A stretch of DNA of 48,566 nt, from the IMG/VR virus record IMGVR_UViG_3300045999_007906, positions 1 to 48,566 of that record; one strand, 5' to 3'. The stretch is from a virus. Each line of letters begins with the position of its first letter. Within the stretch, counting starts at the first letter, position 1. A program made the translations under genes and the position numbers. Below the pieces are notes generated by a model, which made no database searches, had not been told where the DNA came from, and saw only the letters and a program-made list of their open reading frames with translations. Below are positions 2,386-41,993 of this stretch, in pieces.

Positions 2386-2964
2386 GTGAGCTGTGGTTGT
2401 AATAAAGGTAAAGATAGTAATGGAAATAAAGTAAGAATTTTTAGAGATATTTCGTCTGGAAAAACAGATGTAAAAAAACTTTATACTATGATTCAAGGCT
2501 TTGCATTAGCATATGCTTCTAGAGGTTTATCCAAAGAAAAAGCCCCAAAAGAAATAAAGCAGCTAAGAGTTTTGAGTTGTTTTGGAAACGAATCAACTGG
2601 TGGAGAACTTCCTCCTTGCCAGCATTTAAAGAAATCTTCAACTGAAGGAAAGTTTTATTGCGGTGGTTGTGGCTGTGGCGATAAAAAGGCCACATGGCTA
2701 AATGGTACGGCTGAAGAATATTCCAAGCTAGACTTTCCGCATCTAGTTTGTCCTCTTGCAATGCCCGGATTCTCTAACTATAAACAAAGCAATCCAGATG
2801 AAGCAAATGACCCCATAACAAGAAAATATTACATCGAAAACATGGATTTTAACGATGTACAATCAATTGCAGTTACACAGCACGAATTTAATCCGGCTGC
2901 TCTTGGTTTGTCAAAACAAGTATCACAAGAAGAGCTAAAAGACATATTTAAGAAATCTGAGTAA
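2386..2964 (+). CDS. Cysteine-rich protein of unknown function
   Basis: A 192-residue protein starting with GTG, chosen because a strong GGAGG lies just upstream (about 2374-2378). It opens with 'MSCGCNKG', has a second cluster around residues 63-103 ('LSCFG', 'PPCQHLK', 'YCGGCGCGDKKATWL'), and a final 'HLVCPLAMPGFSNY' near residue 122. That is about ten cysteines plus a histidine, which suggests a bound metal (zinc or an iron-sulphur cluster); no disulphide export signal is present. Its place between baseplate genes and gp13 suggests a virion role, perhaps a metal-stabilised tail part, but this is inference. I do not recognise a named family. Confidence 0.55.
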   Translation: MSCGCNKGKDSNGNKVRIFRDISSGKTDVKKLYTMIQGFALAYASRGLSKEKAPKEIKQLRVLSCFGNESTGGELPPCQHLKKSSTEGKFYCGGCGCGDKKATWLNGTAEEYSKLDFPHLVCPLAMPGFSNYKQSNPDEANDPITRKYYIENMDFNDVQSIAVTQHEFNPAALGLSKQVSQEELKDIFKKSE

Positions 2965-2977
2965 GGAATTTAGTGCA

Positions 2978-2995
2978 GCATACATAATAGTATGC
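2978..2995 (+). promoter_or_regulatory. Hairpin over the gp13 start codon
   Basis: GCATAC (2978-2983), loop ATAATA, GTATGC (2990-2995) form a perfect 6-bp stem whose right arm contains the ATG at 2992-2994. The only Shine-Dalgarno-like sequence (AAGGA, 2963-2967) is 24 bases from the start. A TAG at 2971 excludes an upstream in-frame start. The structure may lower or time gp13 translation; this is inference. Confidence 0.35.
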
Positions 2996-3798
2996 CAGCA
3001 CCAAACTCAAGAGAATCTTTAATAGACTACGCTTTTAGGTCTCTAGGATCGCCTGTAATCGAAATAAATGTAGATATGCAGCAAGCCTACGATAGGCTTG
3101 ACGATGCACTCCAGTTTTTTGCCGAAAGGCATTTTGACGGGGTGGATCGTTGCTATTTTGATTATGTAATTACACAGCAAGATATAGACCGTAAATATGT
3201 TAATACTAATGCATTTGGTCCCATGGTTGGAGCAGATCCTTCTGGTAGACCGGATGGCCGTGATATTTTATCAATAATTAGAATTTTTCCATTCGGTACA
3301 CATAGCTCAAATAACTTTTTTGATATTCGATATCAATTGGCATTGAATGACTTCTTTGGTATTAATACCAATTTAAATACAAGTGGCTCAACTCCAGTTG
3401 CCACATATGATATCGCAAAAAGATACATCAGAATGATTGAGATGATGTTTGATCCAGAAAGATCAATTCGCTTCTCAAAAGTTACAAATAAACTTCAGAT
3501 AGAAACTGACTGGTCAGACATGCAGCCCGGAACACATTTGGCTGTAGAGGCTTATGTAATTCTAGATCCTGAGAGATATCCAGAAATTTATAACGATATT
3601 CTTCTTAAGAAGTATGTCACAGCTCTTATAAAGAGACAATGGGGAGCAAACTTATCAAAATTTGATGGGGTTCAGTTACCCGGTGGTATCGTGACAAGAG
3701 GTTCTTCTATATTTTCAGAAGCAATACAAGAAATAGCAATTCTTGAGGAACAAGTAAGATCTGCATATGAATATCCACCTGACTTCATGACAGGATAA
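2992..3798 (+). CDS. 13: Neck protein gp13 (head completion)
   Basis: A 268-residue protein, close to T4 gp13 (309). It begins 'NSRESLIDYAFRSLGSPVIEINVD', followed by 'QAYDRLDDALQFFAERH', and ends with 'VQLPGGIVTRG' and an 'EEQVRSAYEYPPDFM' helix. These are hallmarks of gp13 in T4-like phages. gp13 and gp14 assemble at the portal vertex after DNA packaging, seal the head and form the docking site for the tail. The gp14 gene follows two bases after the stop, the standard order. The start codon is the first possible one after an in-frame stop and lies in a small hairpin. Confidence 0.92.
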   Translation: MPAPNSRESLIDYAFRSLGSPVIEINVDMQQAYDRLDDALQFFAERHFDGVDRCYFDYVITQQDIDRKYVNTNAFGPMVGADPSGRPDGRDILSIIRIFPFGTHSSNNFFDIRYQLALNDFFGINTNLNTSGSTPVATYDIAKRYIRMIEMMFDPERSIRFSKVTNKLQIETDWSDMQPGTHLAVEAYVILDPERYPEIYNDILLKKYVTALIKRQWGANLSKFDGVQLPGGIVTRGSSIFSEAIQEIAILEEQVRSAYEYPPDFMTG

Positions 3799-3800
3799 AA

Positions 3801-4718
3801 ATGGCAACCAATCCTTATTTTAGAGATAACTATTCTGGCGAACAAAATGTAACCGAATCCATCGTTATTGAAACGATCAAAATGATGGGTAAGAACTGTT
3901 TTTACATTCCAAGAGAATATAATAATATTTCTGTTTTATATGGAGAAGATCCATTATCGTCTTTTAGTAATAAAATAGAAATAGAGATGTATCCTGCTAC
4001 AGTAAATGGATTTGGTGGCGCAGGGGATTTGGCTTCCAGATTTGGAATTGAAGTAAAGGACGATGTTACTTTAGTTGTTTCGAAAAAGAGATTCACCAAA
4101 GAAATAACTGAAAGATTTACTAATATAACCCGTCCAAGAGAAGGTGATTTAATTTACTTTCCTTTGTCAAAAACTTTTTTTGAAATCAACTTTGTTGAGC
4201 ATGAAACTCCGTTTTATCAACTAGGTAAATTATATACTTACACTCTATTCTGTGAAACTTTTGTCTTCTCACACGAAGAATTCAATACAGATTCTCCGTT
4301 GGACACGATTATGGATCGTTCAAAAGAAACATATTCGTTGTTTGTCAATGAGGCTGGTGGTACTTTCATGAACGAATTTACCATAGGAGATAAACTATAT
4401 CAGAACGGATATACATTCGGCTCATCGCCAAAGACAGCAGCAATTGTCAATTACAGTACAAGTGTCAAGCAACTTACACTATCTCCGATCAAGGGAACCT
4501 TTGTGTCTGGAGATGTTGTTGTGTCGAACGAATTTGGTATAACCGCATCTATGACTGGTGCTACATCATCTAATGTTGTCACCTACTACAATACTGAGAC
4601 CGATAACATTTCAGATATTGATAATCCATTTGATCTATTAGTAAGTGATTACTACACAGGAGTTACGCCAAGCCTAATTGATTATAGTGAGGATAATCCG
4701 TTTTCAGAGGGTATTTAA
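3801..4718 (+). CDS. 14: Neck protein gp14
   Basis: A 305-residue protein, somewhat longer than T4 gp14 (256). The N-terminus 'NPYFRDNYSGEQNVTESIVIETIKMMG' and the segments 'CFYIPREYNN', 'RPREGDLIYFPLSKTFFEINFVEHETPFYQLGK' (about residues 110-143) and 'LFCETFVFSHEEFNT' match the gp14 family. It joins gp13 as the neck connector between portal and tail. The C-terminal 90 residues are beta-rich and less typical, accounting for the extra length. It ends immediately before the gp16 start, so head-closure and packaging genes are co-transcribed. Confidence 0.92.
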   Translation: MATNPYFRDNYSGEQNVTESIVIETIKMMGKNCFYIPREYNNISVLYGEDPLSSFSNKIEIEMYPATVNGFGGAGDLASRFGIEVKDDVTLVVSKKRFTKEITERFTNITRPREGDLIYFPLSKTFFEINFVEHETPFYQLGKLYTYTLFCETFVFSHEEFNTDSPLDTIMDRSKETYSLFVNEAGGTFMNEFTIGDKLYQNGYTFGSSPKTAAIVNYSTSVKQLTLSPIKGTFVSGDVVVSNEFGITASMTGATSSNVVTYYNTETDNISDIDNPFDLLVSDYYTGVTPSLIDYSEDNPFSEGI

Positions 4719-5135
4719 ATGGCAGATATAACGAACAAAGAAAAACTTAATACTTTTTTAGAAATTTCAACTCCAGCTACAATGAAGAAAGAATCTTCCA
4801 TTGTAAAAAAGAATGTAGATGATGACTATGAATATGCTAGAGATAATATAAGAGAAATACTCGAAAAAGGTAAATTAGCTTTAGATGGCATTCTTCAGGT
4901 AGCCCAAGACGGAGACTCGCCTAGGGCATATGAAGTGGCTACAAATATGCTTAAAGCTCTCTCAGAGATCAATAAAGATCTTATGGATGTTCATGTTAAA
5001 GTAAGTGAAAGTGAAAAAACCACAATTAAACAAACAAACAATGCAATATTTGTGGGTTCAACTTTGGATCTTCAAGACATGATAAATAAAGAAAGAAGTT
5101 CAAAGAAAGCTATAATACAGGATAACAATGTTTGA
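4719..5135 (+). CDS. 16: Terminase small subunit gp16
   Basis: A 138-residue protein (T4 gp16 is 164). The central stretch 'DDYEYARDNIREILEKGKLALDGILQVAQ' (about residues 34-62), then 'SPRAYEVATNMLKALSEINKDLMDVH', is the helical coiled core of T4-type small terminases. It recognises DNA for packaging and stimulates the gp17 ATPase. The gene starts directly after gp14 and overlaps the next gene by 8 bases. In T4, gene 15 lies between 14 and 16; here gp16 comes before the gp15-like gene, a local order swap. Confidence 0.88.
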   Translation: MADITNKEKLNTFLEISTPATMKKESSIVKKNVDDDYEYARDNIREILEKGKLALDGILQVAQDGDSPRAYEVATNMLKALSEINKDLMDVHVKVSESEKTTIKQTNNAIFVGSTLDLQDMINKERSSKKAIIQDNNV

Positions 5136-8100
5136 TTCATTTTATAACGATTGCATTAAAAAGAACACGATAGCATTTGCTTCGCTATTTAATAACATTT
5201 ATGTCAATAGAGAGGATGATTCCGATTCTAAAAAAATCAAAGTTCCTCTTGTTTATGGCGGTAAAGAAAAGTACATTAGCCGCTTACAAAATCCATCAAG
5301 TATTTCTGAAAAAGATAAGCTTCAAATAACTCTTCCTATGATGAGTTTTGATATGTCTAATCTGCAATATGATACGCAGAGACATAGAAATAAACTTGAG
5401 TTTAATAAATTATTTTATCAGGAAGATGGAGAAACAAAAGCAAAGATAAAAATTGGTGAATATCCTTGCTTGATGCAATTCAATCTTACAATCTATACTA
5501 GAAATATTGAAGAAAATTTCCAGATTATAGAACAAATTGCTCCATATTTTACTCCAGAATATATTCTGACAATGGACTTTGATAAGACTCTTACAAGAGG
5601 AATCGATGTTCCAATCAATTTGGTTGCTTCAAAGATTGGAAACGATTATGAAGGCGGATTCGGAAATCGTAGAACTGTAGTTAGCACTTTGCAGTTTGTC
5701 ATGCGTTCTTATTTGTTCGGTCCAGAACGAGAAGCTACTCCAATTCTAACAACTGATTTCAATCTCAATACACAAGATAGCTTCTTGCAATTCATCACAG
5801 ATGTTCAAACTAATGATGATTTATATCTGAACAATCAATCGATAACAGTTACTTGGAGACAGGGAGGGATCTTCCCAAGAAATCCCACAATTCTGCTCAC
5901 CAATCTAACCACATACAATCAAGAAATAACATACGATCCTGAAGCATTTGATGTTGGGGATGGAACTAATAGTGTTACATTTACAATACCCGCAAATGCT
6001 CCGTTGCTACAACAACTTTATGTAAGAGTATTTTTTGGAACAGTATCAGACAGTTCTCCTGCAATTGAAATACGCTCCGCTAGCGGAAATATTTCTTTAT
6101 TGCGACAAGCTAATTTTGCTGGAACTTCTTTTAATGATTTGATGTCTTCCAATCATTATTATTTTACGCAGAGTGGTATTACTCAATTTGCTAGAAGTAA
6201 TAATCTTGTTTTAGCCTATAATTATGGTTCATATAATGATTTAAATATTAAAACCCCTGGACTACTTGAATATTATTATGCATATGGTTTGACATTCAGA
6301 GCAGATACTATAGCCAATCCTCAAATTCCTTTTGGTAGTGTTATACACAATGGATTATGGGCTGGAATAAGCTATGATCAGAACAGAGTGTTACCTGCAT
6401 TGGCTATCTATATGCGACCGGGAGCAAATGTAAATTTATATGCGAATCAAGGTGAAGGAGTATTTGGTACTACTCAAGGAACACTAGCAAATAGAAGAAC
6501 CAGCGAAGATATGTTTCAAGCAACATATGGTTCTAATTCTTATTATATCAATGGATTTTGGGGATGGAATGGTACTACCAGTACTATAAGTATAGGTTTA
6601 TATCCGAGTGCTGGTATAACAATAGAACCAGGATTCAGTGGATTTATTTTCGATAGAAACAATCAAAACAGATATCCAGATAGCGGAAAATATTCAACTG
6701 GAGTAACCCATTCTCAGGCTAGTCCATCTTTTAGAACTTTATTTGATCCAACATTTACACAAAAACTATATCCTTCTAGAGGAGCTACTGGATTAAGAGC
6801 TTGGCAAATAACTGCTTTTGGTACTAATAATCCAGCTACTATGTTATTTGATTCTGGTATTTTTTCTGGATCTACATTACCAAATTATCCTCCATACAGT
6901 AACTTAGATTATCTTGATACTTTTGATAAGATGAGATTACAGACTTATATGGATTGTTACAACATATTCCACAACGGAAATACTTATGTGATACCATCTC
7001 CATTTACTCCTAATTTGGTAACAGATATGTTAGGATATACTGCATATTCTGCTACCGGATTTACAGGCAGAGAAAATTTTGCAGGAAAATTTGGAACAAC
7101 TTATGTTGGTGGTTGGAACAAATTATTCGATTTTGTCTATGATGGAATAACCATTAATGGTAATCGTTATGTTCCACCATCTCCTTGTGTTGATATAATA
7201 TTTAATGATCATGAATTGCGATGGGGTCTAGGAGTAGGAGCAGATTCAAATATATTATGGAGATTAATGTCGTTAGTAAGCGGTTTAACAACTGCATGGA
7301 TTAATAAAGTTAAACAAGATCAATTTTGGCCACAACTAGAAGCCAAATATGCAGAATATCCTGGATTATCATTTGATCGTATATTTGAGTTTAAAAATGC
7401 ATTCCTTTTATATACTTCTGGACCTTTAAGTAAAAAAGGAATTCATGGCGGAATTCAATTTCCATTAGATGCGCTTCCACTACAAGAATTTTATGATAAC
7501 GAAGTTAAAAAATATTGGGGTGGTCTACAACAAGTTTCTGAACTAAGAAGTCCTGGATGTAAATTTGCTCCTGTGCATGTTAATAGACTTCCTAGATTAA
7601 AATCTCATGGTAGATTCCATGATACAACTAGTCAAAGTTTTTCTTTAGGAGTTACTTTACCATATGAGCTTATATACCACTATCCTTATGGTCAACCAAA
7701 TCAACCAGTTATAATTCAAGGTAGATATAGAAAAACAGGATATGCTCCTACTCCGGTTGATGCAATTACATTTGGTTTTGATGAATATTCAGCAATATCT
7801 CGTGATGTTAGTTCTGGATTAAATCAAGACCAGATAATTAATGCTTCTGATAAGTTGGTCCCTTGGTTTACAACCGACAATATTGGTCAAACAGGAACTG
7901 GTTTTGATGTAGGAATTTCATATAATACGCAATATTTTGAATCTAATGGTATACCAGAAATTGGTAATGGTGTGTTTGTATCGTTTTTTGGAGAATATGA
8001 TGAAGAAAATTTGAGATCTCTTGCAGGAACAAGATTATCTGAAAAATATGAACCGTTTTTTGCGATGAAAGACGAGTCTAGATTTGTTCGTGGAATAATA

Positions 8101-9177
8101 GAAGAGAACATGAGCCATGGTGTTTCGGGTATATTTATTTACAATAATATTCAATTTAATAGATCAGGTTATTTTATTCCTCATGGATATGAAAATTCTT
8201 GGTTTATGGATTTTATTCCGTCTTCTAGAAATGGTAATGCTAGGGGATTTACTTATACAGATCCTGCCATATTCTCAAAAACAAACTTTACAACAGATCC
8301 TAGAGTAAATGACAATTTTCAACCAATTAATTTTTATCACTCTTATAATGAAAATATTTTCATATCAAAATTATTAACTACTTTACCTCTTAACATTCTT
8401 AATCAATCAGTAATTTTTCAAGGACCAATTACTAATTTAGAAGATCCTTTTTATGGATTACATACAAAGTCATTTAATAATTTTAAATATAATGATGAAA
8501 TATTATTAAATCATATTTTGTGGGATATTGAAGTAGCAACTCATGGAAGAACATACGAATATCTTTCCAGTTCAGATGATATTACCACTGGAGAAGCACT
8601 TCGATATGAGGTCGGTGGCTTTAATAATAGTAAATTAAATTCTCCTCTTTTGAGTAAGGTGCGGTTATTAGCTACAGATTCTTCAGATCAAAATTTAATT
8701 TTACATAGAATCACGCTTCCAATACCTTATATTTTAACAACTGATTATGCAAAACCCGAACAAGATTCGTATTATGATAATTGGTATAATAATCATTTTG
8801 CGAATAATGTTTTAGCATCTAGTTATGATTCTACACGCGGAATAACTCTTGATAATATTAATCTCATTACTACAGGTAATAGAGATTTAGACTTTTATAC
8901 TAAATCAGTAGTTTCAGAGACTGATGGAACTTATTCGTGGAGAACTTTAAGAACAAATCCAGCAATTAGAAGATTTAGTGTAAATGTTTATGCTAATAAT
9001 TTATTGGTAGGAAATTTAACTCCAAGTAAATATCATCCTATGGGAGTTTGGTTAATAACAGATGAAGTATCAATTCTGCCGGATGGAACAACATTTAACA
9101 ATTATAATTTGAGGTTTGAATATAATGACGATGGTCCAATTACAGATGGAATTACAACTGCACCGTATAGAACATGA
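5128..9177 (+). CDS. 15: Giant fusion: gp15 tail-completion domain plus about 1100-residue extension
   Basis: A single uninterrupted 1349-residue frame. Residues 1 to about 205 are a good gp15: 'IAFASLFNNIYVNR', 'KVPLVYGGKEKYISRLQ', 'ITLPMMSFDMSNLQYD' and 'IIEQIAPYFTPEYILTM'. T4 gp15 is 272 residues; it caps the tail tube and sheath and joins tail to neck. The rest (about 230-1349) has no counterpart in gp15. It is rich in Asn, Gly, Ser, Thr, Tyr and Phe, with no signal peptide, coiled coil or membrane segment, and looks like a chain of beta-sandwich domains; one candidate is 'TNSVTFTIPANAPLLQQLYVRV' near residue 287. The codons become more AT-rich soon after the gp15 part ends. It lies between gp16 and gp17 with overlaps on both sides (ATGA at its end). 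The extension probably projects from the tail-neck junction as collar or adhesin; that is inference. Confidence 0.8.
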   Translation: MFDSFYNDCIKKNTIAFASLFNNIYVNREDDSDSKKIKVPLVYGGKEKYISRLQNPSSISEKDKLQITLPMMSFDMSNLQYDTQRHRNKLEFNKLFYQEDGETKAKIKIGEYPCLMQFNLTIYTRNIEENFQIIEQIAPYFTPEYILTMDFDKTLTRGIDVPINLVASKIGNDYEGGFGNRRTVVSTLQFVMRSYLFGPEREATPILTTDFNLNTQDSFLQFITDVQTNDDLYLNNQSITVTWRQGGIFPRNPTILLTNLTTYNQEITYDPEAFDVGDGTNSVTFTIPANAPLLQQLYVRVFFGTVSDSSPAIEIRSASGNISLLRQANFAGTSFNDLMSSNHYYFTQSGITQFARSNNLVLAYNYGSYNDLNIKTPGLLEYYYAYGLTFRADTIANPQIPFGSVIHNGLWAGISYDQNRVLPALAIYMRPGANVNLYANQGEGVFGTTQGTLANRRTSEDMFQATYGSNSYYINGFWGWNGTTSTISIGLYPSAGITIEPGFSGFIFDRNNQNRYPDSGKYSTGVTHSQASPSFRTLFDPTFTQKLYPSRGATGLRAWQITAFGTNNPATMLFDSGIFSGSTLPNYPPYSNLDYLDTFDKMRLQTYMDCYNIFHNGNTYVIPSPFTPNLVTDMLGYTAYSATGFTGRENFAGKFGTTYVGGWNKLFDFVYDGITINGNRYVPPSPCVDIIFNDHELRWGLGVGADSNILWRLMSLVSGLTTAWINKVKQDQFWPQLEAKYAEYPGLSFDRIFEFKNAFLLYTSGPLSKKGIHGGIQFPLDALPLQEFYDNEVKKYWGGLQQVSELRSPGCKFAPVHVNRLPRLKSHGRFHDTTSQSFSLGVTLPYELIYHYPYGQPNQPVIIQGRYRKTGYAPTPVDAITFGFDEYSAISRDVSSGLNQDQIINASDKLVPWFTTDNIGQTGTGFDVGISYNTQYFESNGIPEIGNGVFVSFFGEYDEENLRSLAGTRLSEKYEPFFAMKDESRFVRGIIEENMSHGVSGIFIYNNIQFNRSGYFIPHGYENSWFMDFIPSSRNGNARGFTYTDPAIFSKTNFTTDPRVNDNFQPINFYHSYNENIFISKLLTTLPLNILNQSVIFQGPITNLEDPFYGLHTKSFNNFKYNDEILLNHILWDIEVATHGRTYEYLSSSDDITTGEALRYEVGGFNNSKLNSPLLSKVRLLATDSSDQNLILHRITLPIPYILTTDYAKPEQDSYYDNWYNNHFANNVLASSYDSTRGITLDNINLITTGNRDLDFYTKSVVSETDGTYSWRTLRTNPAIRRFSVNVYANNLLVGNLTPSKYHPMGVWLITDEVSILPDGTTFNNYNLRFEYNDDGPITDGITTAPYRT

Positions 9178-10811
9178 GTAAAAAACATAAAGGTTATTTG
9201 GGAAATTCCAACTTAAAAGAAGCTGGAATTAAAATAGACTATACTCCAGAACAGGTTAAAGAGTATATTCGATGTGCCAAAGACCCAATTTATTTTATTA
9301 AAAATTACATTAAGATTGTATCTTTGGACAAAGGTTTAGTTCCTTTTGATTTATATGATTATCAAGAAGACATAGTACAAAAGATACACGATAATAGATT
9401 TATCATAGCAAAACTGCCTCGTCAGTCTGGTAAATCGACAACCATGGTATCATATATTCTGCATTATATTTTGTTTAATCAGAGTATGAATGTAGCTATT
9501 CTGGCAAACAAGGGTTCTACTGCTAGAGAAATTTTAAGCCGACTTCAGCTTGCATATGAATATCTTCCAAAATGGTTACAACAAGGCGTTGTTGAATGGA
9601 ATAAAGGTTCTTTGAAGCTGGAGAATGGGTCTAAGATCATAGCCTCTACCACTTCAGCATCTGCTGTTCGTGGTGGTTCGTTCAATATGATTTTCTTGGA
9701 CGAATTTGCTCACGTTCCTAACAATGTCGCTGAAGAATTTTTCAGTTCAGTATTCCCTACCGTTACCTCGGGCCAGACAACAAAGGTTTTAATGGTAAGT
9801 ACACCAAACGGTATGAACATGTTTTACCATTTCTGGAAAAATGCCATCAAAAAAGATGGAGAGCCGGGTAAAAACGAATATGTTCCGATAGAAGTAAATT
9901 GGAGACAGATTCCTTTGTATCCCGGTGGTCCAATGCGTGGACCTGAGTGGAGACAGCAAATGATTGATCAAACTAGCGAATTGCAGTTTGAAAGCGAATT
10001 TGAATGTTCGTTCTTAGGTTCTTCAAATACTCTCATATCAACATATAAGTTAAATACACTTGTCTACAATCAGCCTATAGAAAGGCGACCAAACGGTCTA
10101 AGCATCTATAAGCAACCAGATGAGGATGGAACGTACTTCTGTGTGGTAGATACTTCAAGAGGGCAGGGAAAGGATTATAGCGCATTTATAATTATAAACG
10201 GAAATACAAAGCCCTATGAGGTAGTTGCAGTTTATAGAAATAATGTCATTTCTCCATTTGATTTCCCCGGAGAAATTTACAATGCTCTCGTAGAGTATGG
10301 AAATGCTCATTGTTTGGTAGAAGTAAATGATGTAGGATCTCAAGTTACAGAAATTCTGCATAGGGATTTTGAGTATGAAAACATGATTTCTACTCAATAT
10401 ATGGGTCGAGCAGGCCAAAAAATATCTTTAGGGTTCGGCAGAGGCCAAAAACAAATAGGCGTAAGAACAAGTACAGCATTGAAAAAGATTGGCTGCGCTG
10501 CCCTTAAAAATTTAGTAGAGTGCGATAAAATAATATTCTGGGACCAAGACATGGTTTCAGAATTTTACACCTTTATTTCAAAAGCAAATAGCTTTAGTGC
10601 TGATGATGGATATAACGACGATTTAGTCATGTGCATGGTTTTATTTGGCTGGCTGACTAGACAAAACTATTTTGAGGATCTTTTGGATTTAAAGAGTAAA
10701 AAAAACATAAATACAGCAGAGGATAATCAGGAAAACCACATTTTCGTGATAGAGGACGATGAAACACAAAATATGAAGATGGGTGGAGACCTGTGGTTTG
10801 AGGTAAATTAA
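9174..10811 (+). CDS. 17: Terminase large subunit gp17
   Basis: A 545-residue packaging motor (T4 gp17 is 610). The N-terminal ATPase has Walker A 'PRQSGKST' (residues 82-89), Walker B 'MIFLDE' (172-177, catalytic E177) and coupling motif 'STP' (209-211). The C-terminal RNase H-like nuclease has the expected acidic residues: D326 in 'FCVVDTSRG', E383 in 'LVEVNDVG', and the late Asp in 'GYNDDLVMCMV'. It pumps DNA through the portal and cuts the concatemer. Its ATG overlaps the stop of the gp15 fusion, so the motor is translationally coupled to a giant structural gene. Confidence 0.96.
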   Translation: MSKKHKGYLGNSNLKEAGIKIDYTPEQVKEYIRCAKDPIYFIKNYIKIVSLDKGLVPFDLYDYQEDIVQKIHDNRFIIAKLPRQSGKSTTMVSYILHYILFNQSMNVAILANKGSTAREILSRLQLAYEYLPKWLQQGVVEWNKGSLKLENGSKIIASTTSASAVRGGSFNMIFLDEFAHVPNNVAEEFFSSVFPTVTSGQTTKVLMVSTPNGMNMFYHFWKNAIKKDGEPGKNEYVPIEVNWRQIPLYPGGPMRGPEWRQQMIDQTSELQFESEFECSFLGSSNTLISTYKLNTLVYNQPIERRPNGLSIYKQPDEDGTYFCVVDTSRGQGKDYSAFIIINGNTKPYEVVAVYRNNVISPFDFPGEIYNALVEYGNAHCLVEVNDVGSQVTEILHRDFEYENMISTQYMGRAGQKISLGFGRGQKQIGVRTSTALKKIGCAALKNLVECDKIIFWDQDMVSEFYTFISKANSFSADDGYNDDLVMCMVLFGWLTRQNYFEDLLDLKSKKNINTAEDNQENHIFVIEDDETQNMKMGGDLWFEVN

Positions 10812-13800
10812 ATGGCTGAACTAACACACTCACATAATATTAGCGGAACTTTAATCGGATTAACCCCAGGAAGTAACCCTTTAACAGTCGGATTGACGTT
10901 TTCTGTTGATGGTGTGTCTTTTTCCTCTGTAATTTTTGATATACTCGTTGCTTTAAATTCTTTTGAATATGAAGGAACATATACCGATATCAATGCCCTC
11001 AGAGCTGCGTTTGGTAGTTCTGAGATTATAGTAGCAGATAACACAAACGGCCTTGTTGTAAGCAATGTAGGATCTACATGGAATCATTATATTGGAGTTA
11101 CTTTATATTCTCCTAATAATAATATTTTTAACCCTGGATTAGCTGAAGAAATATATGATAGCGATTTACATTATCGAACAAGACCAAATTCTTTCAGCGT
11201 AAAATATGGAGCATTTGGTCAAACTGGTCCGAGTCAAATAGCAGAAGTTGCCTCTTCAACAAGAGGAGAGACTATTTCGTTTATACCGTTTAACATTGTT
11301 TCAGCGACTAACGGAAATGCTGGATCAACGCTAGGCTTAACGCTAAATTCTGCAAATATTCAAAGATTTTATGTTGGTATTGGTACAGGTGCAACTTTTT
11401 TTGGTATAGTATCATTACTCGGTTGTACTAATGCAATAACTTTAAATTCTTTAAACTTAACTTCTACTCAAATAAATGAAATAAATGCGGATTATTTAGA
11501 TCCTAATATTTCTGGTTCTGATTCAAAATTCAATACGCTTAGAAGAATTGTTGATACGTCGGGAACAACATATTTTAATACTTCCTACACTGAATTTGTA
11601 ATACCGAGACATATTCCAGCAGGAAATTATTACTTAATGGCTATTCCAAATTCGTTTTTTGGACTTGGAGCGTTTTCAACTACTGAATCCTTTTTAGCAG
11701 CAAATCTTAATTTACCTACTACCAATATTAATATTACAAGTAATATAACTCCTGGTCTTACTGCTATTTATAGTTTTTCTCCAGGAACAACCTTTTTTAC
11801 AACACCAATTTCTTCTAGAGTATCTAATCTTTCAAATGCTTTTTCATATGTTGATTATGCAGATACTACCTTTTCTGTTTTTGATCCAATCACTTTTAAT
11901 TTAGCAACATCCCCATTTGGAATCACAAATAATTTACTTGGAAATACATTTCATAAAATGGATTATGGAATAAATGGTAGAGGCACTACAAATTATGGCG
12001 GTGCTTATGCTAATAACCCAATATCATTTGTTTCTCCGTTATTTGGATTTATTCCGATTGGTTTGACTTCTGGTAATACTTTAACCGTATTATTAGATGG
12101 TATTACATTTTATGAAAAAATTTATAATCCTTATAATGTAAATTTTAATAATAGTAATTTTTCTCATTTTTATACAGTTAGTTCAAATGTTGGTAATAAT
12201 GCAAGATTTACACGACTAATAAATGAAGCTAATAATTTATCAGGTAAAAGAAATTTAAATCATATTAATAGAGCATATTATAGAGTAGATTTTAACAATC
12301 ATGCCAATCCTTGGGGTTTTACTGGATTTACATTTGGACAAGGGTCTACACAAAGTGAATTAAAAGTAATTTATGGAAATCCTGTAAACGGTGTGTCGTT
12401 CACTTTACCAATTAATACCGGATCTCCTTCTGATTTTTATGCATTAACAGGAACAGGCGTATATATCCCCATTCAAGGTGATAATAATGGAGTTACATTA
12501 ATTCCTGGTTCTTCTATTGAAGTTCACTATTCTAACAGACCATTAGGATATATTGAAAAATTAAATTTATACAATGGATCTGGTAATTTTGCTTTAGGTA
12601 TAACTATTGCTGATAATACAACTTTTTCCCCAAGAAATACTACTGAACTTGGATTTATTAGAAAAACATATGATCCATCAAATGTTGAAACTATTACTAT
12701 TCCAAATTTAAATGCAGTTGGAACTACGGGAACTGCAAGAATTTCATTTATACGAGCTGATGGTGTAAGTTACGAATTTGGTTCTACTCCAGTTACAACA
12801 CCATTTAGAACATATTCACCTGTTCATACACTTGGAGATATTTCTGGTTTGACCATAATTGAAACTTCTGGGAGAAATATTGCTCCAGCAGTAGATTTGA
12901 TGAGAATTACTGTAAACCATGGATTGACTAATATTGAAGCTGGAGTAGTAGGAAGAAATAATATTTACAGCAGATATTATATGGCTTCAAATGTTGATAA
13001 TATTAATACTTCTGGTAATTTTACCCCATTTTATTTTAGTTTTATATTAGATTCTATTGGTCCTGAACAGGTAGTTAATAATAGTATCACTGTTGCGAAT
13101 CGTAATTTACGCTCTTTTAGAGCAGCTGCTTTAGAGCGTGAACCTACCCTATTAGTAATATCTGGTACTGATATAACTATTCCGCTAAGAAATTATGTAC
13201 CAGTTGTTGGTTATACTGCCGCTAATGGTACTTTTATTCAATGGCCAGTTACCACTATCGAAGAAAATAGTTCATTAACCCAACTAATGGATTATTTTAA
13301 TGGTCCTGCACAAACAGAAGCAGAATTATTGGCACAATCTGAGGCATCTTATTATCAAAGTTATGATGCTGGTTATACATTAATGTTTGATAATGGTGAT
13401 AATCCTCAACCAGAATTTAATGGCGGTGAATGGTATCTTGCAAATCCAGGATCATTTTTAAGGTATTCAAGCGGAAGTACCTTTTATCCATCAACTGCAT
13501 TTACTTTCAATGGTTCTAATAGAAGTTATATAAATTATATCTTCTATGATTATAGAATTACAGGATTAACTTTATCATCAACATCATCAGTAGGTGTGCA
13601 AGATTCGTTAACAGCAACAATAATAGTAAATGATTTGCCACATGCATCTATTTTTGATGGTTTAAGATTACAGGTTCTTAATGGAAGTTCAGAACTGTTT
13701 GGTAAAAATATTCTATATTCAACTACAAACACTAATGAATATAGAATTCCTGGATATTCTACTATAGGAATAACTAATTTTGCTGCTTATTATACTGCAA

Positions 13801-15188
13801 CGCCAAGATCAATAACTAGTATCTTCGTTGGATCTGGTGTAACTTTAGGCGGAATTACTATTACTCCTCCTTCTGCTGGATGGCCAGCTAGTACTGACCT
13901 AACTGTTAGAGTATCACCAATATTTAAATTGTTTGTAAATCTTGATGCTGATAGATACAATGATCCGGCTAACAGTTATTTTAGAAATACAATATTTAGA
14001 ACTAGTGGTGCACCAACTGGTGGTGGAGGAGGAGGTGGTTCATCTAGTGGATCTGTTAGTGTCTCGGAATCTGTTGTTACTGGAGTTGCCTTTACCACTA
14101 CAGAAAGCGATTTCTATGCTGGATTCCTATGTGGCACAACTGCATATAACATCATAACAAATAATAGTACTTCTTCATTTAGTGTTCTTACAAATAGCAG
14201 CAGTGCTTATGCAAATGCAAAGGCAGCATTTGATTCTGGTTCATTGACGATAAACACTACTACAGACTTTGAAATTCATTCGTTGTTGAATTACATGGAT
14301 TATGGTGGAAATATAATTATAAGCCCAACGATTGATGGTCTACTTGGAAGCAATTATGAATACGATGTTCTCTTCTGTGAAGACAATAAGAGATATGGTG
14401 AACTCATGCGTATCGGTTCAGAAAAGAACCATGCAATTGTTATTGTCGGCACATCACTTGAAGAAGATGCTTCTTCGTTCACAGCACCAGCATATACGAA
14501 TCTAAATTCTGCTGGTCTTGTTGATGGATTGACATTTATGACATCAACCTCCGTCAATAAGGGAGAGTATGTATTCTCTGTGCTTGGATACAAGAATAGA
14601 ACCAGATTCTATGGTTCTGGAACTGACACTGTTCGTCTATATCTTTCATCTGATGTAGCAGGTTCTTACGCTCGTTCTTATGTCGAGAACAAGTATCACT
14701 TGTCAAGCTCGGGATCAGCTAGAGGTAGCATTAAGACATATTCTTCGATTACCCCAACCATCGTTGATCGTGATCTTGCAGGTTATTATTCACGCGGAAT
14801 AAACCCAATTTACATTCCAAGCGGAACAAATAAAGCTGCAATTTGGGGTGATGCTACAGGTATAACTACAGGAAATGATGCATATAGAAAATCAGCTTCT
14901 GTAGCAAAAAATACCAGCACTATTAAGCGAGAATTCAAAAAGATCTTTGAAGATTTCCAATTTGAGCAAAATAATGCTGGTACAAGAGCGCAATTTGTTT
15001 CAAGAGCAACAACAGTATTGGATAAACTGCAATCTGTCGGTGGTTTATCATCTTATACTTTAACATGCAACGAAACAAACAACACACCAGCAGTTGTTGC
15101 TCAGAAACGATTGGTTGTAGATTTAGTTATTGTTCCAAATAATTCGATTGAATCTATAGTACTAAATTTTGTTCTTAATCAAATATAA
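10812..15188 (+). CDS. 18: Tail sheath gp18 paralogue 1 with about 1070-residue N-terminal extension
   Basis: A 1458-residue protein. Only the last 370 or so residues (about 1090-1458) are sheath: 'DFYAGFLCGTTAYNI', 'FEIHSLLNYMDYGGNIIIS', 'RGINPIYIPSGTNKAAIWGD', 'FEDFQFEQNNAGTRAQF' and 'LTCNETNNTPAVVAQKRLVVDLVIVP' match the conserved C-terminal half of T4 gp18. Before this is a seven-glycine hinge (residues 1070-1076, bases 14019-14039), then Ser-rich linker. Residues 1-1069 are Gly/Ser/Thr/Asn-rich, likely all beta, and contain a repeated 'IGLTxGxxLTV' segment (15-37 and 414-431). Codon use is AT-rich in the extension and clearly less so in the sheath part, which resembles the capsid gene. 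There is no in-frame start near the hinge, so the sheath part cannot easily be made alone. The extension likely decorates the outside of the tail; inference. Confidence 0.8.
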   Translation: MAELTHSHNISGTLIGLTPGSNPLTVGLTFSVDGVSFSSVIFDILVALNSFEYEGTYTDINALRAAFGSSEIIVADNTNGLVVSNVGSTWNHYIGVTLYSPNNNIFNPGLAEEIYDSDLHYRTRPNSFSVKYGAFGQTGPSQIAEVASSTRGETISFIPFNIVSATNGNAGSTLGLTLNSANIQRFYVGIGTGATFFGIVSLLGCTNAITLNSLNLTSTQINEINADYLDPNISGSDSKFNTLRRIVDTSGTTYFNTSYTEFVIPRHIPAGNYYLMAIPNSFFGLGAFSTTESFLAANLNLPTTNINITSNITPGLTAIYSFSPGTTFFTTPISSRVSNLSNAFSYVDYADTTFSVFDPITFNLATSPFGITNNLLGNTFHKMDYGINGRGTTNYGGAYANNPISFVSPLFGFIPIGLTSGNTLTVLLDGITFYEKIYNPYNVNFNNSNFSHFYTVSSNVGNNARFTRLINEANNLSGKRNLNHINRAYYRVDFNNHANPWGFTGFTFGQGSTQSELKVIYGNPVNGVSFTLPINTGSPSDFYALTGTGVYIPIQGDNNGVTLIPGSSIEVHYSNRPLGYIEKLNLYNGSGNFALGITIADNTTFSPRNTTELGFIRKTYDPSNVETITIPNLNAVGTTGTARISFIRADGVSYEFGSTPVTTPFRTYSPVHTLGDISGLTIIETSGRNIAPAVDLMRITVNHGLTNIEAGVVGRNNIYSRYYMASNVDNINTSGNFTPFYFSFILDSIGPEQVVNNSITVANRNLRSFRAAALEREPTLLVISGTDITIPLRNYVPVVGYTAANGTFIQWPVTTIEENSSLTQLMDYFNGPAQTEAELLAQSEASYYQSYDAGYTLMFDNGDNPQPEFNGGEWYLANPGSFLRYSSGSTFYPSTAFTFNGSNRSYINYIFYDYRITGLTLSSTSSVGVQDSLTATIIVNDLPHASIFDGLRLQVLNGSSELFGKNILYSTTNTNEYRIPGYSTIGITNFAAYYTATPRSITSIFVGSGVTLGGITITPPSAGWPASTDLTVRVSPIFKLFVNLDADRYNDPANSYFRNTIFRTSGAPTGGGGGGGSSSGSVSVSESVVTGVAFTTTESDFYAGFLCGTTAYNIITNNSTSSFSVLTNSSSAYANAKAAFDSGSLTINTTTDFEIHSLLNYMDYGGNIIISPTIDGLLGSNYEYDVLFCEDNKRYGELMRIGSEKNHAIVIVGTSLEEDASSFTAPAYTNLNSAGLVDGLTFMTSTSVNKGEYVFSVLGYKNRTRFYGSGTDTVRLYLSSDVAGSYARSYVENKYHLSSSGSARGSIKTYSSITPTIVDRDLAGYYSRGINPIYIPSGTNKAAIWGDATGITTGNDAYRKSASVAKNTSTIKREFKKIFEDFQFEQNNAGTRAQFVSRATTVLDKLQSVGGLSSYTLTCNETNNTPAVVAQKRLVVDLVIVPNNSIESIVLNFVLNQI

Positions 15189-15194
15189 TAAATA
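15187..15194 (+). promoter_or_regulatory. Possible late promoter before sheath paralogue 2
   Basis: AATAAATA fits the T4-type late core (NATAAATA) and lies just before the ATG at 15199, where no Shine-Dalgarno sequence is seen. In this AT-rich DNA a chance match is likely. Confidence 0.22.
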
Positions 15195-15198
15195 ATAT

Positions 15199-16332
15199 AT
15201 GCCGATTACAACTACTACTCAATCAAATACATTTAATATATCTCCTGTATCTCCTACAGATCATTATACAGGATTTTTATGTTCAACTACAACATATAAT
15301 TTGCTGGGCGCAACTGCAGATGTATTTACAAATCTTGAAACAATTTCTGAATCTATTTCTACATTATCTTCAAGAACTACATATACGAATATAACCACTA
15401 ATAGTTTAACTGACAAAGAAATTCATTCAATTTTTAATTGTATGGAATACGGTGGTAAAATTGTACTTTCGGGCACAACTGGCGGATTGGCTTTATCATC
15501 TGCAAAAATTTCTGAAGTAATTTCGGAAGATGCATCTAGATACAATGAAGTTTTAAGCGTAGCAAAAGCTAGATTAAATTGCATTGCTATAATTGGTTCA
15601 GATAGAGATGTTAGCGGAAATTATACAAATCCAGATCAAGCTAATATTATTTCACAAGTAGATACTCAACTTGGAACTACTGGAACAACTGCAATATCAT
15701 ATCTTGCATGTACTGTTATAGGTCATAAAGACAGACCTAGATTTTATACTGGTTCTTCTTCGACAACGACCGGAATTACAGTATTTCTTGTTTCGGATGC
15801 AGCAGGAGCAAATGCAAGAGCATCTTCTCAGTCAAAACCATACTTAACATCTGCTGGTGTTTATAGAGGAGAGCTTTTAAATTACACAAATGTAACTCCA
15901 AAACTATCTTTTACTTCATCGACTACTTTAGCTACTAGAGGTATTAATTATTTTAATTATCTTCAGTCAAAAGGCAAATATTACTTGTGGGGAGATGAAA
16001 CTGGATTTAGAGATAGCACAAGCGCAAAAAGCTCATATGGATTTGCCAAAGCGTTTGTCTATATTAATAGAGAAACCACTTCTATTTTGGATGATTATGT
16101 ATTTGAATTCAATGATGCAACTACAAGATCAGCAATTAAATCAAAAATTCAAAATCTTTTAGATCCAATGGTTTCCAATGGAGCATTGGTTAGTTACGTT
16201 TTAATCTGCGATGAAACAAACAACCCACAATCAGTAATTAATCAGAGACAACTAAAAGTAGATCTAACAATAGTACCAAATCTACCAGTAAAGAGTATTA
16301 CACTCACATTTAGCATTTCTCTGCTATCATGA
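15199..16332 (+). CDS. Tail sheath gp18 paralogue 2 (compact)
   Basis: A 377-residue protein that aligns by eye over nearly its whole length with the C-terminal sheath domain of the preceding gene: 'DHYTGFLCSTTTYNLLG', 'DKEIHSIFNCMEYGGKIVLSG', 'ATRGINYFNYLQSKGKYYLWGDETG', 'LDDYVFEFNDATTRSAIKSK' and 'LICDETNNPQSVINQRQLKVDLTIVP'. The D/NETNN segment is a sheath signature. At this length it has only the inner sheath core that polymerises and contracts, lacking outer domains of T4 gp18 (659 residues). It uses more AT-rich codons than paralogue 1's sheath part. It may form a minor sheath ring or mixed sheath, or be the ordinary building block; the sequence does not decide. It overlaps the next gene by 4 bases. 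Confidence 0.8.
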   Translation: MPITTTTQSNTFNISPVSPTDHYTGFLCSTTTYNLLGATADVFTNLETISESISTLSSRTTYTNITTNSLTDKEIHSIFNCMEYGGKIVLSGTTGGLALSSAKISEVISEDASRYNEVLSVAKARLNCIAIIGSDRDVSGNYTNPDQANIISQVDTQLGTTGTTAISYLACTVIGHKDRPRFYTGSSSTTTGITVFLVSDAAGANARASSQSKPYLTSAGVYRGELLNYTNVTPKLSFTSSTTLATRGINYFNYLQSKGKYYLWGDETGFRDSTSAKSSYGFAKAFVYINRETTSILDDYVFEFNDATTRSAIKSKIQNLLDPMVSNGALVSYVLICDETNNPQSVINQRQLKVDLTIVPNLPVKSITLTFSISLLS

Positions 16333-17750
16333 ATATAGTTAATTACGGTCAAGTAGCAACACCAAGCGGTTTTAAAATACTTGCTTTTGTTACTCCATTG
16401 ACTCAAAGTGTTTTATCTGGAATTACAGTAAGTCAATTAAACCAAGATCAACTAACATATGTTGAATCACTAACAGATTTTGTTGATACTTTATTTGGAT
16501 ATACTGCAATAACATTTCAATCTGGTCCAGACACGGATGTTATTAAAAAAACAGATGTAGAATTGCACGGTATAATGACGATGCTTGAATATGGAGCATC
16601 TGTTTATGTCATGAATACATTAGGCTTAACGCTTTCAGGCGCATATACAACCAAAAATATTCAAAGCGTCATAAATTCTACAGGCGCAGAATGTATCGTA
16701 AATAATGTATTTGACGGTCTTACTGCTACTGGATTTACTGGAATTCAAGAAACTCCATTTATAATTCAAAATACAGAGTTTGAAAAAGATTTACTTGAAT
16801 ATTTTATTTCTGCGATAAATGATACAACTAGTACTGGAAGTACAGCCGGAACTCCATTTGTTTATAATGATCAAATTGGAGAAATTTATCCTAATTTTGA
16901 AGATGATATTGCACCTAATGAGTCATTTACAGAGGAATTTCCAACTTTAGGAATATTCTCATATGATACTTTTCCATCATCAGCATACGGATTAACAGAT
17001 TATCAAAATTATTCAGTATCAAATGGAAAATTAATTGATCAAAATTTTATTGAGTTGTTGGGTGTTAAGATACGAAATAGATGCATAAATCCTGAAAATG
17101 ATCCAGAAACTGTAAATGAACTATGGACTAAATCAGCAATTCCAATGATATATGATTTGGCTGGTCAATTTTCAAGATTAAAATTGGCTGGAATTCCTTG
17201 GGGTAGTACCTCAAATTTTCAAATAGGTCCTCTTTTGAATATAGTTCAGGAAGATGGAGAATATGTTCTTCCGTTTTTAAACAGTAATTCCGTAGCTGAA
17301 TATCGCAATACGATAATTGGACTTATAAACAATAAAATAAATTATGTCACTTTTTATAGTTTTGACGGTATATTTGGGTGTTATTTTTTAAGTGATCTAA
17401 CGTGCGAATCACAAACAGATAATTCTGCTCCATTTACACTAGCTCTTAGTGAAAAAAGTGTGTTTTTTGTTAACATAACCAAATATATCAAAAATAAAAT
17501 ATCAACAATATCCGAAAATTATGTTTTTGAATTAAATAATGATACGACTAGATTGTTATTGATATCTGAAATTTTGACTTTTATGAATAATTTGCTTTCA
17601 AGCGGAGCAATAAATAACTTCAATGTAGTGTCAGATGAAACAAATAATACCTTTGAAGATAGACTAAATAGGCGATTAAGGGTAGATATCGCCTACACGA
17701 CCAATCCAACAAATGATTTTGTGGAACAATCAATAATTATAATACCTTAA
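16329..17750 (+). CDS. Tail sheath gp18 paralogue 3 (divergent)
   Basis: A 473-residue protein, third in a row of sheath-like genes. Shared features: 'KILAFVTPLTQSVL' at the N-terminus, 'VELHGIMTMLEYGASVYVM' (about residues 77-95), 'ISENYVFELNNDTTRLLLISE' and 'NVVSDETNNTFEDRLNRRLRVDI' at the C-terminus. A central acidic and aromatic insertion of about 90 residues (roughly 170-260) is missing from the other two. It is the most diverged copy. A specialised end ring at the baseplate or neck is one possible role. The start overlaps the previous stop (ATGA). Confidence 0.7.
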   Translation: MNIVNYGQVATPSGFKILAFVTPLTQSVLSGITVSQLNQDQLTYVESLTDFVDTLFGYTAITFQSGPDTDVIKKTDVELHGIMTMLEYGASVYVMNTLGLTLSGAYTTKNIQSVINSTGAECIVNNVFDGLTATGFTGIQETPFIIQNTEFEKDLLEYFISAINDTTSTGSTAGTPFVYNDQIGEIYPNFEDDIAPNESFTEEFPTLGIFSYDTFPSSAYGLTDYQNYSVSNGKLIDQNFIELLGVKIRNRCINPENDPETVNELWTKSAIPMIYDLAGQFSRLKLAGIPWGSTSNFQIGPLLNIVQEDGEYVLPFLNSNSVAEYRNTIIGLINNKINYVTFYSFDGIFGCYFLSDLTCESQTDNSAPFTLALSEKSVFFVNITKYIKNKISTISENYVFELNNDTTRLLLISEILTFMNNLLSSGAINNFNVVSDETNNTFEDRLNRRLRVDIAYTTNPTNDFVEQSIIIIP

Positions 17751-17777: not shown

Positions 17778-18314
17778 ATGAGTAACGCAAATTCACTAAG
17801 TTATTTTAAACAAAAATTCAACGGTGGTACACGACAGAACCGCTTTGAGGTAGAAGGTAATTGGCCAAGCATAATTACTGAAAACCCCGAAACATGCTTT
17901 CATATAGTGTCTGCCAGCATGCCTCAATCCGATGTTGGAATTATTCAAATTCCATATAGAGGAAGAGTTCTAAACTTGGCTGGCGATAGAGAATATGAAG
18001 CATGGAATATAGTTGTTTATGATGACACAGGAACTAATTCTCTATGGAAAGCTTTTACTAGCTGGTCCAATAGAATCAATAAAATTCTTGGAAATGTTAC
18101 TGATTCAAACAATTTAAATTTTACTCGCACAAAAACAAATTGGAAAGTTAGACAGTTAAATACCACAAATAACGGAACACTTCGTGAACTGGAGCTACTT
18201 GGTTGTTGGCCTGCCTCTGTTGGTGCTTTGAATTTCAATGCTTCAAATGTTAATCCTGTTGTTTTTACTGTAACGATGAATTACGATCAATATAGGATAA
18301 CAAAATACTCATGA
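17778..18314 (+). CDS. 19: Tail tube protein gp19, copy 1
   Basis: A 178-residue protein (T4 gp19 is 163). It has the tube-subunit pattern 'SYFKQKFNGGTRQNRFEVEGNWP', 'FHIVSASMPQSDVGIIQIPYRGRVLNLAGDREYEAWNIVVYDD' and 'LWKAFTSWSNRIN'. Hexamer rings of this protein stack inside the sheath and form the DNA channel. The gene follows the sheath block after a 27-base gap and overlaps the second tube copy by 4 bases. It is the more canonical of the two and probably the main tube subunit. Confidence 0.92.
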   Translation: MSNANSLSYFKQKFNGGTRQNRFEVEGNWPSIITENPETCFHIVSASMPQSDVGIIQIPYRGRVLNLAGDREYEAWNIVVYDDTGTNSLWKAFTSWSNRINKILGNVTDSNNLNFTRTKTNWKVRQLNTTNNGTLRELELLGCWPASVGALNFNASNVNPVVFTVTMNYDQYRITKYS

Positions 18315-18883
18315 GCTGCGATAGCAAAATTTCAACTTTTAGAGATGCATTTGCATCATTTCCAAGAGGAAATAGATTTTCAATCTCCGGTCAAATCCCA
18401 AACTCTAATAATGGATGGGGTAACGATAATACTGGTGGCTTTCATATTCATGTCTTAGCCTTAAATTTACCTCCAGCGAACTTAACAACACTTAGATACA
18501 ACTACAGAGGAAGAACTCTTAAGAATCCAGGAGATAGACTATTTCCTTTCTGGAATGTAACCATTCTTGATGATACGGGTACAGATACTGTATGGGAGGC
18601 ATTCCATAAGTGGAGTCATAGCATCAATGATCATGATACAAATTTGAGAACGTCTGGTACAAACTATGATTCTTATAAACAAAACGGATGGATCGTTAAG
18701 CAACTTGGCCTTAACGGAGATACCATTAAGAGCGTAACGCTTGAAGGTTGTTTTCCTTACATTGTAGGACCAATAGAACTTGACATGAACCAGAGAAATA
18801 CTGTGTGTCAATTTAGCATGGTAATAGCATACGACAGCGTTGTCGATGTATTTACGAGAGATGGCACTATAAACATTACTTGA
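18311..18883 (+). CDS. Tail tube protein gp19 paralogue, copy 2
   Basis: A 190-residue protein with the same layout as the preceding gene: 'FRDAFASFPRGNRFSISGQIP', 'FHIHVLALNLPPANLTTLRYNYRGRTLKNPGDRLFPFWNVTILDD' and 'VWEAFHKWSHSIN'. It has a loop insertion near residue 33 ('NNGWGNDNTGG'). A second tube-fold gene could be a minor ring that starts or ends the tube (as gp48, gp54 or gp3 do in T4) or an alternative tube subunit. The GA-rich start region and ATGA overlap with copy 1 show coupled translation. Confidence 0.82.
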   Translation: MSCDSKISTFRDAFASFPRGNRFSISGQIPNSNNGWGNDNTGGFHIHVLALNLPPANLTTLRYNYRGRTLKNPGDRLFPFWNVTILDDTGTDTVWEAFHKWSHSINDHDTNLRTSGTNYDSYKQNGWIVKQLGLNGDTIKSVTLEGCFPYIVGPIELDMNQRNTVCQFSMVIAYDSVVDVFTRDGTINIT

Positions 18884-21128: not shown

Positions 21129-21772
21129 AGTTAATAACCGAAACAATTGAAAATGTTCGTGTAATTACTGAAAGTGTTGACGGTAATAATAAGAACTATT
21201 TCATTGAAGGTATCTTCATGCAGGCTGATGCCAAGAATAGAAATGGTAGAGTTTATCCCAAGCCTATTCTCATGAATGAAGTTAGACGATACATCAATGA
21301 ACATGTAAATAACAAAAGAGCTTTTGGTGAACTAAATCACCCAACTGGCCCATCTGTTAATCTTGATCGTGTATCGCATTTAATTACTGAATTACACGAA
21401 CGCGGAAATGATGTTTATGGAAAAGCCAAAATACTTGACACCCCAACAGGAAAAATAGTCAAGAGTCTATTGGGCGAAGGCGTTCAGCTTGGAGTTTCTT
21501 CAAGAGGAATGGGATCTCTTAAGAAGACCAAAGAAGGTGTAAATCAAGTTCAGGAAGATTTCATGCTTGCTGCTGTTGATATAGTAGCTGACCCATCTGC
21601 TCCTCATGCATTTGTTAATGGCATCATGGAAGGAAAAGAGTGGGTTTGGAGTAATGGAGTTCTAAAAGAGAAAACAATTTCAAACTACAAAAAAGCAATA
21701 GAAAATACTCCAAAGAAAAATCTTTCCGAAAAAACAATAAAAATATTCAATCACTTTTTGAGGGGTCTATGA
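21125..21772 (+). CDS. 21: Prohead core protease gp21
   Basis: A 215-residue serine protease, nearly the same length as T4 gp21 (212). The fold is that of herpesvirus-type assemblins. Visible catalytic residues are His72 in 'FGELNHPTG' and Ser125/126 in 'GVSSRGMGS', followed by 'DIVADPSAPHAFV'. It digests the scaffold and trims the capsid protein after Leu/Ile-x-Glu, triggering prohead maturation. It is flanked by core-type genes and gp22, the normal assembly block. Starts and stops overlap on both sides. Confidence 0.95.
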   Translation: MKLITETIENVRVITESVDGNNKNYFIEGIFMQADAKNRNGRVYPKPILMNEVRRYINEHVNNKRAFGELNHPTGPSVNLDRVSHLITELHERGNDVYGKAKILDTPTGKIVKSLLGEGVQLGVSSRGMGSLKKTKEGVNQVQEDFMLAAVDIVADPSAPHAFVNGIMEGKEWVWSNGVLKEKTISNYKKAIENTPKKNLSEKTIKIFNHFLRGL

Positions 21773-22284
21773 ACTTTATAGAAAGTAAATACATAGAGCA
21801 AATTAATAATCTTCAGAAAGAATTAGCAATATTAAAATTGCAAGAATCTAAGATTTCAAAGGCTGTAAACTTAAAAGAATATTCAGATGGCTCATCAGGT
21901 ACACTTGAAGGTGCTGCTGAAACTGTTGCAGACACTAGCATTGATTTGCTAAAAGGTTATTTAACAGCAGCAGGAATTCAAAGAGCTTTATCTGGAGAAA
22001 AAGTAAAACCAGAAGAATTATCTTCATTGAGAGCAACACCAATTATTAAACATAACATACAAGACTTTATGTCTAACTTAGTTGCAGCTCCATTGATTGG
22101 TATTGGTTCTAAATTAGCAGCAGCAATAATCAATGCCGCTGGAAGAAATCCATTGGATTTTGCCAAGGCAGTTGAACTAACAAGATACAATCCGTATGCG
22201 ATTGCAAGCCCCGACGAAGAAAGAAGAAAAACAGTTGCGCCACAAAATCCGCAACAAACTCAACAGACTGGTCCAACACCATAA
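21769..22284 (+). CDS. Unknown protein between protease and scaffold genes
   Basis: A 171-residue protein. An N-terminal helix (residues 5-30) could form a coiled coil. The middle (about 95-130) is alanine-rich and fairly hydrophobic ('MSNLVAAPLIGIGSKLAAAIINAAG') but not a clear membrane segment. The last 25 residues are Pro/Gln/Thr-rich and probably disordered. T4 has nothing of this kind between genes 21 and 22. It might be an extra core or internal head protein. It overlaps the gp21 stop (ATGA). No family recognised. Confidence 0.4.
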   Translation: MNFIESKYIEQINNLQKELAILKLQESKISKAVNLKEYSDGSSGTLEGAAETVADTSIDLLKGYLTAAGIQRALSGEKVKPEELSSLRATPIIKHNIQDFMSNLVAAPLIGIGSKLAAAIINAAGRNPLDFAKAVELTRYNPYAIASPDEERRKTVAPQNPQQTQQTGPTP

Positions 22285-40453: not shown

Positions 40454-40566
40454 TGCCTCTTGATATAAACGAAATTCATTTAAAAAAGTATAAAACAGAT
40501 GGAAATATCAATTATGAACCATCATGTAATCATGAAGTTAAATGTTTGTTTTTGGTAATGGTATAA
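40453..40566 (+). CDS. 37-codon micro-ORF linking two sugar genes
   Basis: ATG at 40453 inside the GT10 gene's stop (TAATG); stop TAA at 40564-40566, two bases before the next ATG. Protein begins 'MPLDINEIHLKKYKTDG' and ends 'CLFLVMV'. It may be a remnant of a lost gene that keeps translation running across the gap. A TGG-TATAAT (TATAAT at 40562-40567) also touches the next start. Confidence 0.3.
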   Translation: MPLDINEIHLKKYKTDGNINYEPSCNHEVKCLFLVMV

Positions 40567-40567
40567 T

Positions 40568-41203: not shown

Positions 41204-41215
41204 CATATTCATTAC

Positions 41216-41991: not shown

Positions 41992-41993
41992 TT

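Follow-up and report, generated by a model that had tools for sequence, protein, structure and literature searches.

The closest described counterparts of the protein analysed here are the T4 gp18-type sheaths (PHROG 23; Pfam Phage_sheath_1C), which are known from structures of T4 and of a Klebsiella phage KP1 variant. In solved sheaths, the N-terminus joins a "handshake" sheet between neighbouring subunits (PMC10457771). For the multi-domain (type 3) sheaths of large phages, the extra domains were proposed to serve adsorption or stability, and sheaths of 1,248–1,283 amino acids (aa) have been tabulated (PMC9230969). Coexisting sheath paralogs are also on record: Pseudomonas phage PaBG has a two-component sheath with paralogs that arose by duplication and are both about 58 kDa (PMC7412058), and the anti-feeding prophage and Photorhabdus injection systems use specialised sheath paralogs within one machine, with one-domain sheaths of 354–451 aa (PMC9230969). 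Here we describe a tail sheath gene from the IMG/VR virus record IMGVR_UViG_3300045999_007906 (48,566 nucleotides, the whole of which is called the window below), the product of which carries an extension of about 1,065 residues (116 kDa) N-terminal to its core. The window shares the gene order gp15-gp17-gp18-gp19-gp20 and a complete predicted core fold with T4, yet it has three sheath genes, and the extension precedes the core via a glycine linker, whereas in the T4 sheath the extra domains are inserted within the core.

The open reading frame at 10812–15188 on the plus strand encodes 1,458 aa in a single frame with zero internal stops, and the sheath core comes last, as was claimed in a preliminary description that read this gene as a sheath with a long N-terminal extension. 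Sequence profiles recognise sheath solely at the C-terminal end of the protein, where PHROG 23 matches residues 1272–1456 (E 7.1e-23) and Phage_sheath_1C matches residues 1370–1455 (E 1e-5; 25.9 bits, just below the cut-off of 26.9). The adjoining 377-aa paralog aligns to residues 1099–1453 with 37% identity, and positions 1–358 of the 359 positions of the sheath core profile align unbroken at residues 1102–1457, all after the extension. An AlphaFold model of residues 880–1458, based on 51 sequences taken from the window and from the loci fetched for comparison (L numbers below), shows predicted local distance difference test (pLDDT) values mostly of 70–91 from about residue 1099 onward. The modelled core aligns with the solved sheath of a T4-like Klebsiella phage (Z 29.8, root-mean-square deviation 2.7, 321 residues aligned, model 217–567 on chain 20–634) and with the R2 pyocin sheath (Z 25.5), and a Foldseek search of viral models returned sheath proteins that match on the core, by which route Synechococcus phage S-CBWM1 was reached. 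Altogether, residues 1099–1458 are predicted to be a complete T4-type sheath core fold, in agreement with the claim that only the last ~370 residues are sheath. Such a core would be assembly-competent, with tail assembly and contraction as its predicted functions.

Extension and core are joined by a run of seven glycines (residues 1070–1076), already pointed out as a hinge in the preliminary description, and 6–8 glycines are present in every aligned contig covering this site. Because residue 2 of the R2 pyocin sheath pairs with model residue 198, that is protein residue 1077, the glycine run ends right where a normal sheath chain would begin. Residues 1065–1098 appear in the model as a low-confidence linker (pLDDT near 25), which supports a flexible hinge. 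The complete frame, 1,433–1,460 aa in length, occurs in nine further IMG/VR contigs, with partial copies in others; since these nine contigs are independent and the hinge glycines are kept, the fusion is not an assembly chimera, and together with purifying selection on both halves (window versus L006) they rule out a chimera or a pseudogene fusion. The single chain also withstood the search for start codons of a separate sheath core, as no ATG, GTG or TTG occurs between residues 1040 and 1145. The TTG at residue 1040 itself (Leu) is not conserved, every relative aligned at this position having Ser. Two proteins, one of them an ordinary sheath, could still arise if the chain were cut at the hinge or had an internal start that escaped detection, which would suit the exposed Gly/Ser hinge and the stretch behind it, which is as long as the N-terminal arm of an ordinary sheath. 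Arguing the other way are the start codon data and a hinge that is kept in frame across homologues, and tail assembly in T4-type phages proceeds separately from the prohead protease; we thus hold two separate proteins to be very unlikely.

The extension is composed of 11% T, 10% each of N, S and G, and only 0.9% K. No match to it was found in Pfam, PHROGs, PDB sequences or 50,697 phage records, and no confirmed relative in bacterial or archaeal genomes. Profile comparison gave only weak matches for internal repeats (best probability 16%) and detected no homology to a second giant extension, that of the gp15-like protein described below (probability 0.3%). An AlphaFold model of residues 1–1080, based on 8 sequences, reached a mean pLDDT of 31.8, too low for any conclusion on the fold. 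Of the earlier wording that this part is "unrelated beta-rich" sequence, the first word holds for the family, PDB and phage searches, while beta-richness is plausible from composition only.

Extension and core evolve differently. Between the window and L006, omega is about 0.04 in the core and 0.18–0.27 in the extension. In L010, all other structural proteins compared are 92–100% identical to those of the window, save the gp15 extension (87%), yet its sheath extension is only 42% identical over residues 1–660 and 79% over residues 661–1070. At the nucleotide level, the 45 bases upstream of the start codon are identical in these two contigs, blocks covering about 640 codons are 42–75% identical and later blocks 74–100%; hence, divergence begins at the start codon. 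L004 differs from the window in divergent blocks around residues 921–1160 and at 41–80, the other blocks being 91–100% identical. Pairwise identities define four N-terminal allele classes, formed by the window with L004, L006, L007 and L070, by L010, by L012 with L068, and by L014, and the class of the window occurs on two different core lineages. Furthermore, the cores of L006, L007, L012 and L014 are 95–97% alike, yet the N-terminal modules of L012 and L014 are 36–43% identical to those of L006 and L007 and to each other. The extension thus shows what is sought in an adhesin-type protein, a hypervariable, recombining module among close relatives, and from the sequences compared it appears to be such a module set against a slowly evolving core. 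This pattern suggests allele exchange in an exposed, interacting module, and it speaks to selection and recombination, short of proving binding.

When the sheath genes of the fetched loci were scanned, a full core starting near residue 1080–1106 was found in this clade only. In sheaths under about 480 aa, the core begins near residue 18–46, with the exception of L080, which is matched only from residue 169. In long sheaths (about 550–958 aa), the match to the C-terminal part of the core lies towards the end of the chain; any second match is at the N-terminus of the chain, which places the insertion inside the core and not before it. In some of these long sheaths, including the longest (846–958 aa), the scan showed no N-terminal match. 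In sister phages (60–70% terminase identity), the sheaths measure 389 and 431 aa and lack the extension, and gp15 is about 350 aa long. In a tree of sheath cores, the extended core groups with the 377-aa paralog (support 93/96) and the 473-aa copy stands apart, the deeper order being unsure owing to long branches. Judged by these comparisons, the extension seems limited to this lineage, presumably a freshwater one given the sampling sites of some contigs, and to one of its three tandem sheath paralogs. The gp15-like protein of the same phages bears a C-terminal extension of ~1,130 aa that is absent from all relatives outside the clade (mostly 215–420 aa, a few 536–714 aa) and that, in most comparisons, exceeds every tail part but the sheath extension in variability.

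The type 3 sheaths (PMC9230969) and gp167 of S-CBWM1, a sheath of 1,492 aa, likewise bear very large added parts. Given this protein and the tabulated sheaths of 1,248–1,283 aa, size is not unprecedented; what is unusual is the placement on the sheath N-terminus, to which the preliminary description had also pointed. S-CBWM1 gp167, read by eye, starts with a canonical sheath N-terminus, whereas the window protein starts with the extension. The extension profile also scored weakly on gp167, in a database holding a single sequence, and this score was disregarded. PaBG resembles the window phage in having more than one sheath paralog, yet both of its sheaths are of ~58 kDa, while here one of three copies bears a 116-kDa extension. 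No precedent for N-terminally extended sheaths was found in the open-licence literature, where the combination seen here, one of three paralogs with a giant, allele-exchanging extension ahead of its core, is apparently undescribed.

With moderate confidence, we favour the explanation that the extended sheath combines a normal core with a hinged, exposed module of ~1,065 residues, most likely an auxiliary adhesin riding on the sheath. Together with its sheath paralogs, the extended subunit would be built into the tail, forming some or all of the rings, and the flexible Gly/Ser linker would let the module extend from the N-terminal handshake arm to the tail surface, where it may contact the host or the environment, most likely as an auxiliary adhesin, and be moved upon sheath contraction. 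That the projections would cover the tail, as initially proposed, is not supported as stated because two adjoining sheath paralogs lack the extension. Several observations weigh against our explanation. Neither the sequence searches nor the low-confidence model of the extension turned up a fold, family or binding motif. Omega of the extension is below 1 in every comparison (0.11–0.90), and relaxed constraint could also yield its rapid change. The N-terminus of the sheath core sits in the inter-subunit handshake, which is an awkward exit for a 116-kDa domain. Finally, a 113-kb relative (L146) has separate fibre-like genes for a collagen-like protein of 575 aa and a tail-spike-like protein of 851 aa; the module is therefore not the sole candidate adhesin, and the main receptor binder may be another protein.

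The N-terminal exit would pose less of a steric problem if the extended copy were a minor subunit at one end of the sheath, in a neck or baseplate ring where it forms a collar or whisker, with the shaft made of the 377-aa paralog. Such a division of labour would fit three tandem paralogs of which only one is extended, and the anti-feeding prophage and Photorhabdus injection systems indeed have distinct baseplate-region sheath proteins, present as separate chains among the structural matches. In T4, gp15 caps the head-proximal end of the sheath, and the end-ring placement is strengthened because this sheath terminator has its own unrelated giant extension in the same phages only. However, judged by branch lengths, neither of the other two sheath cores is as conserved within the clade as the extended one, which does not suggest a marginal role, and the GAGG upstream of its start, as well as the start itself, is conserved among relatives. 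We regard placement at a sheath end as a serious rival to display along the shaft, albeit a somewhat unlikely one. Since the window also holds a block of sugar genes (glycosyltransferase, UDP-galactopyranose mutase, fucosyltransferase-like, GHMP kinase and nucleotide-sugar genes), the Ser/Thr/Asn-rich extension could also be a coat glycosylated by the phage's own enzymes that protects or masks the virion, and its T, N and S contents as well as the discussion of phage virion glycosylation (PMC12619734) are in favour of this. Yet the sugar cluster may instead modify DNA or the host surface, and whole-module swapping suits binding specificity better than a passive coat, which makes a glycan shield improbable in our view.

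Returning to the adhesin explanation, we tentatively put forward a wider proposal, which we consider rather unlikely as a whole: that the contractile sheath serves as a host-recognition surface by means of the hinged, allele-swapped adhesin on one of three paralogs and of the giant gp15 extension, mechanically coupled to contraction. If true, binding along the tail shaft, and not at the tip alone, would help set host range. The exchange pattern in the extension is of the type usually seen in receptor-binding proteins, and because the part in question is separable at the hinge, is present on one of three paralogs and is exchanged in this manner, the role in adsorption or stability proposed for extra sheath domains becomes testable. 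The protein further offers a natural example of a sheath core that would tolerate a very large N-terminal fusion, and may inform how sheath rings accept attached domains.

Table 1. Features of the extended sheath gene and its neighbourhood (window coordinates).
Feature	Position	Strand	Remarks
Gp15-like tail sheath stabiliser (residues 5–222) with unrelated C-terminal extension of ~1,130 aa	5128..9177	+	same clade only
Large terminase (gp17-like), immediately upstream of extended sheath	9174..10811	+	marks T4-type gene order
Extended tail sheath protein	10812..15188	+	1,458 aa; full-length homologues in L004–L012
Extension, N-terminal variable module (residues 1–640)	10812..12731	+	four allele classes across relatives
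Extension, C-terminal part (residues 641–1065), lower variability	12732..14006	+	alignment; AlphaFold pLDDT about 50–70 in places for 880–1065
Linker (residues 1066–1098), Gly7 run at 14019–14039	14007..14105	+	leads into N-terminal arm of sheath core; pLDDT about 25
Predicted complete sheath core (residues 1099–1458), gp18/pyocin-type fold	14106..15185	+	profiles, paralog alignment, AlphaFold, structural alignment
Second sheath paralog, 377 aa, without extension	15199..16332	+	tree: sister of extended core
Third sheath paralog, 473 aa, divergent, without N-terminal extension	16329..17750	+	profile search, tree
Tail tube protein 1 (gp19-like)	17778..18314	+	profile search
Tail tube protein 2 (gp19-like paralog)	18311..18883	+	32% identical to tube 1

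The extended sheath gene sits in a tail operon beside tube and portal genes, within a structural block that runs from a neck gp14-like gene through the small terminase, the gp15-like stabiliser, the large terminase, the three sheath genes, the two tube genes, portal, prohead protease and scaffold to the major capsid protein. Among annotated phages, cyanophage T4-like viruses match the terminase best (56% identity), and the window phage is therefore a distant T4-like relative without a close annotated phage. The two tail tube paralogs (17778–18883) lie side by side and share 32% identity, and sister phages carry two or three such genes. A gap of ten bases lies ahead of the 377-aa sheath gene (15186–15199), with a conserved TAATAAATA immediately ahead of the start codon. 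An ATAAATA motif before the same gene resembles a late promoter and is conserved, but it lies 4 bases from the start and occurs 21 times in the window against 40 expected, rarer than chance, and was not used.

The sugar-gene block (35455–48323) encodes a nucleotide-sugar transferase, a GT47-like protein, UDP-galactopyranose mutase, a GT10 fucosyltransferase-like protein, GT25, a GT1-like protein, GHMP kinase and a GDP-mannose dehydratase/epimerase-like protein. A similar-looking block is present in the 113-kb relative, followed at 2459–6755 of that contig by the genes for the collagen-like tail fibre (575 aa) and the tail-spike-like protein (851 aa). Beside the prohead protease of the window, a small protein encoded at 21769–22284 is 33–38% identical to its counterparts in L006 and L009, its neighbours being 86–93% identical.
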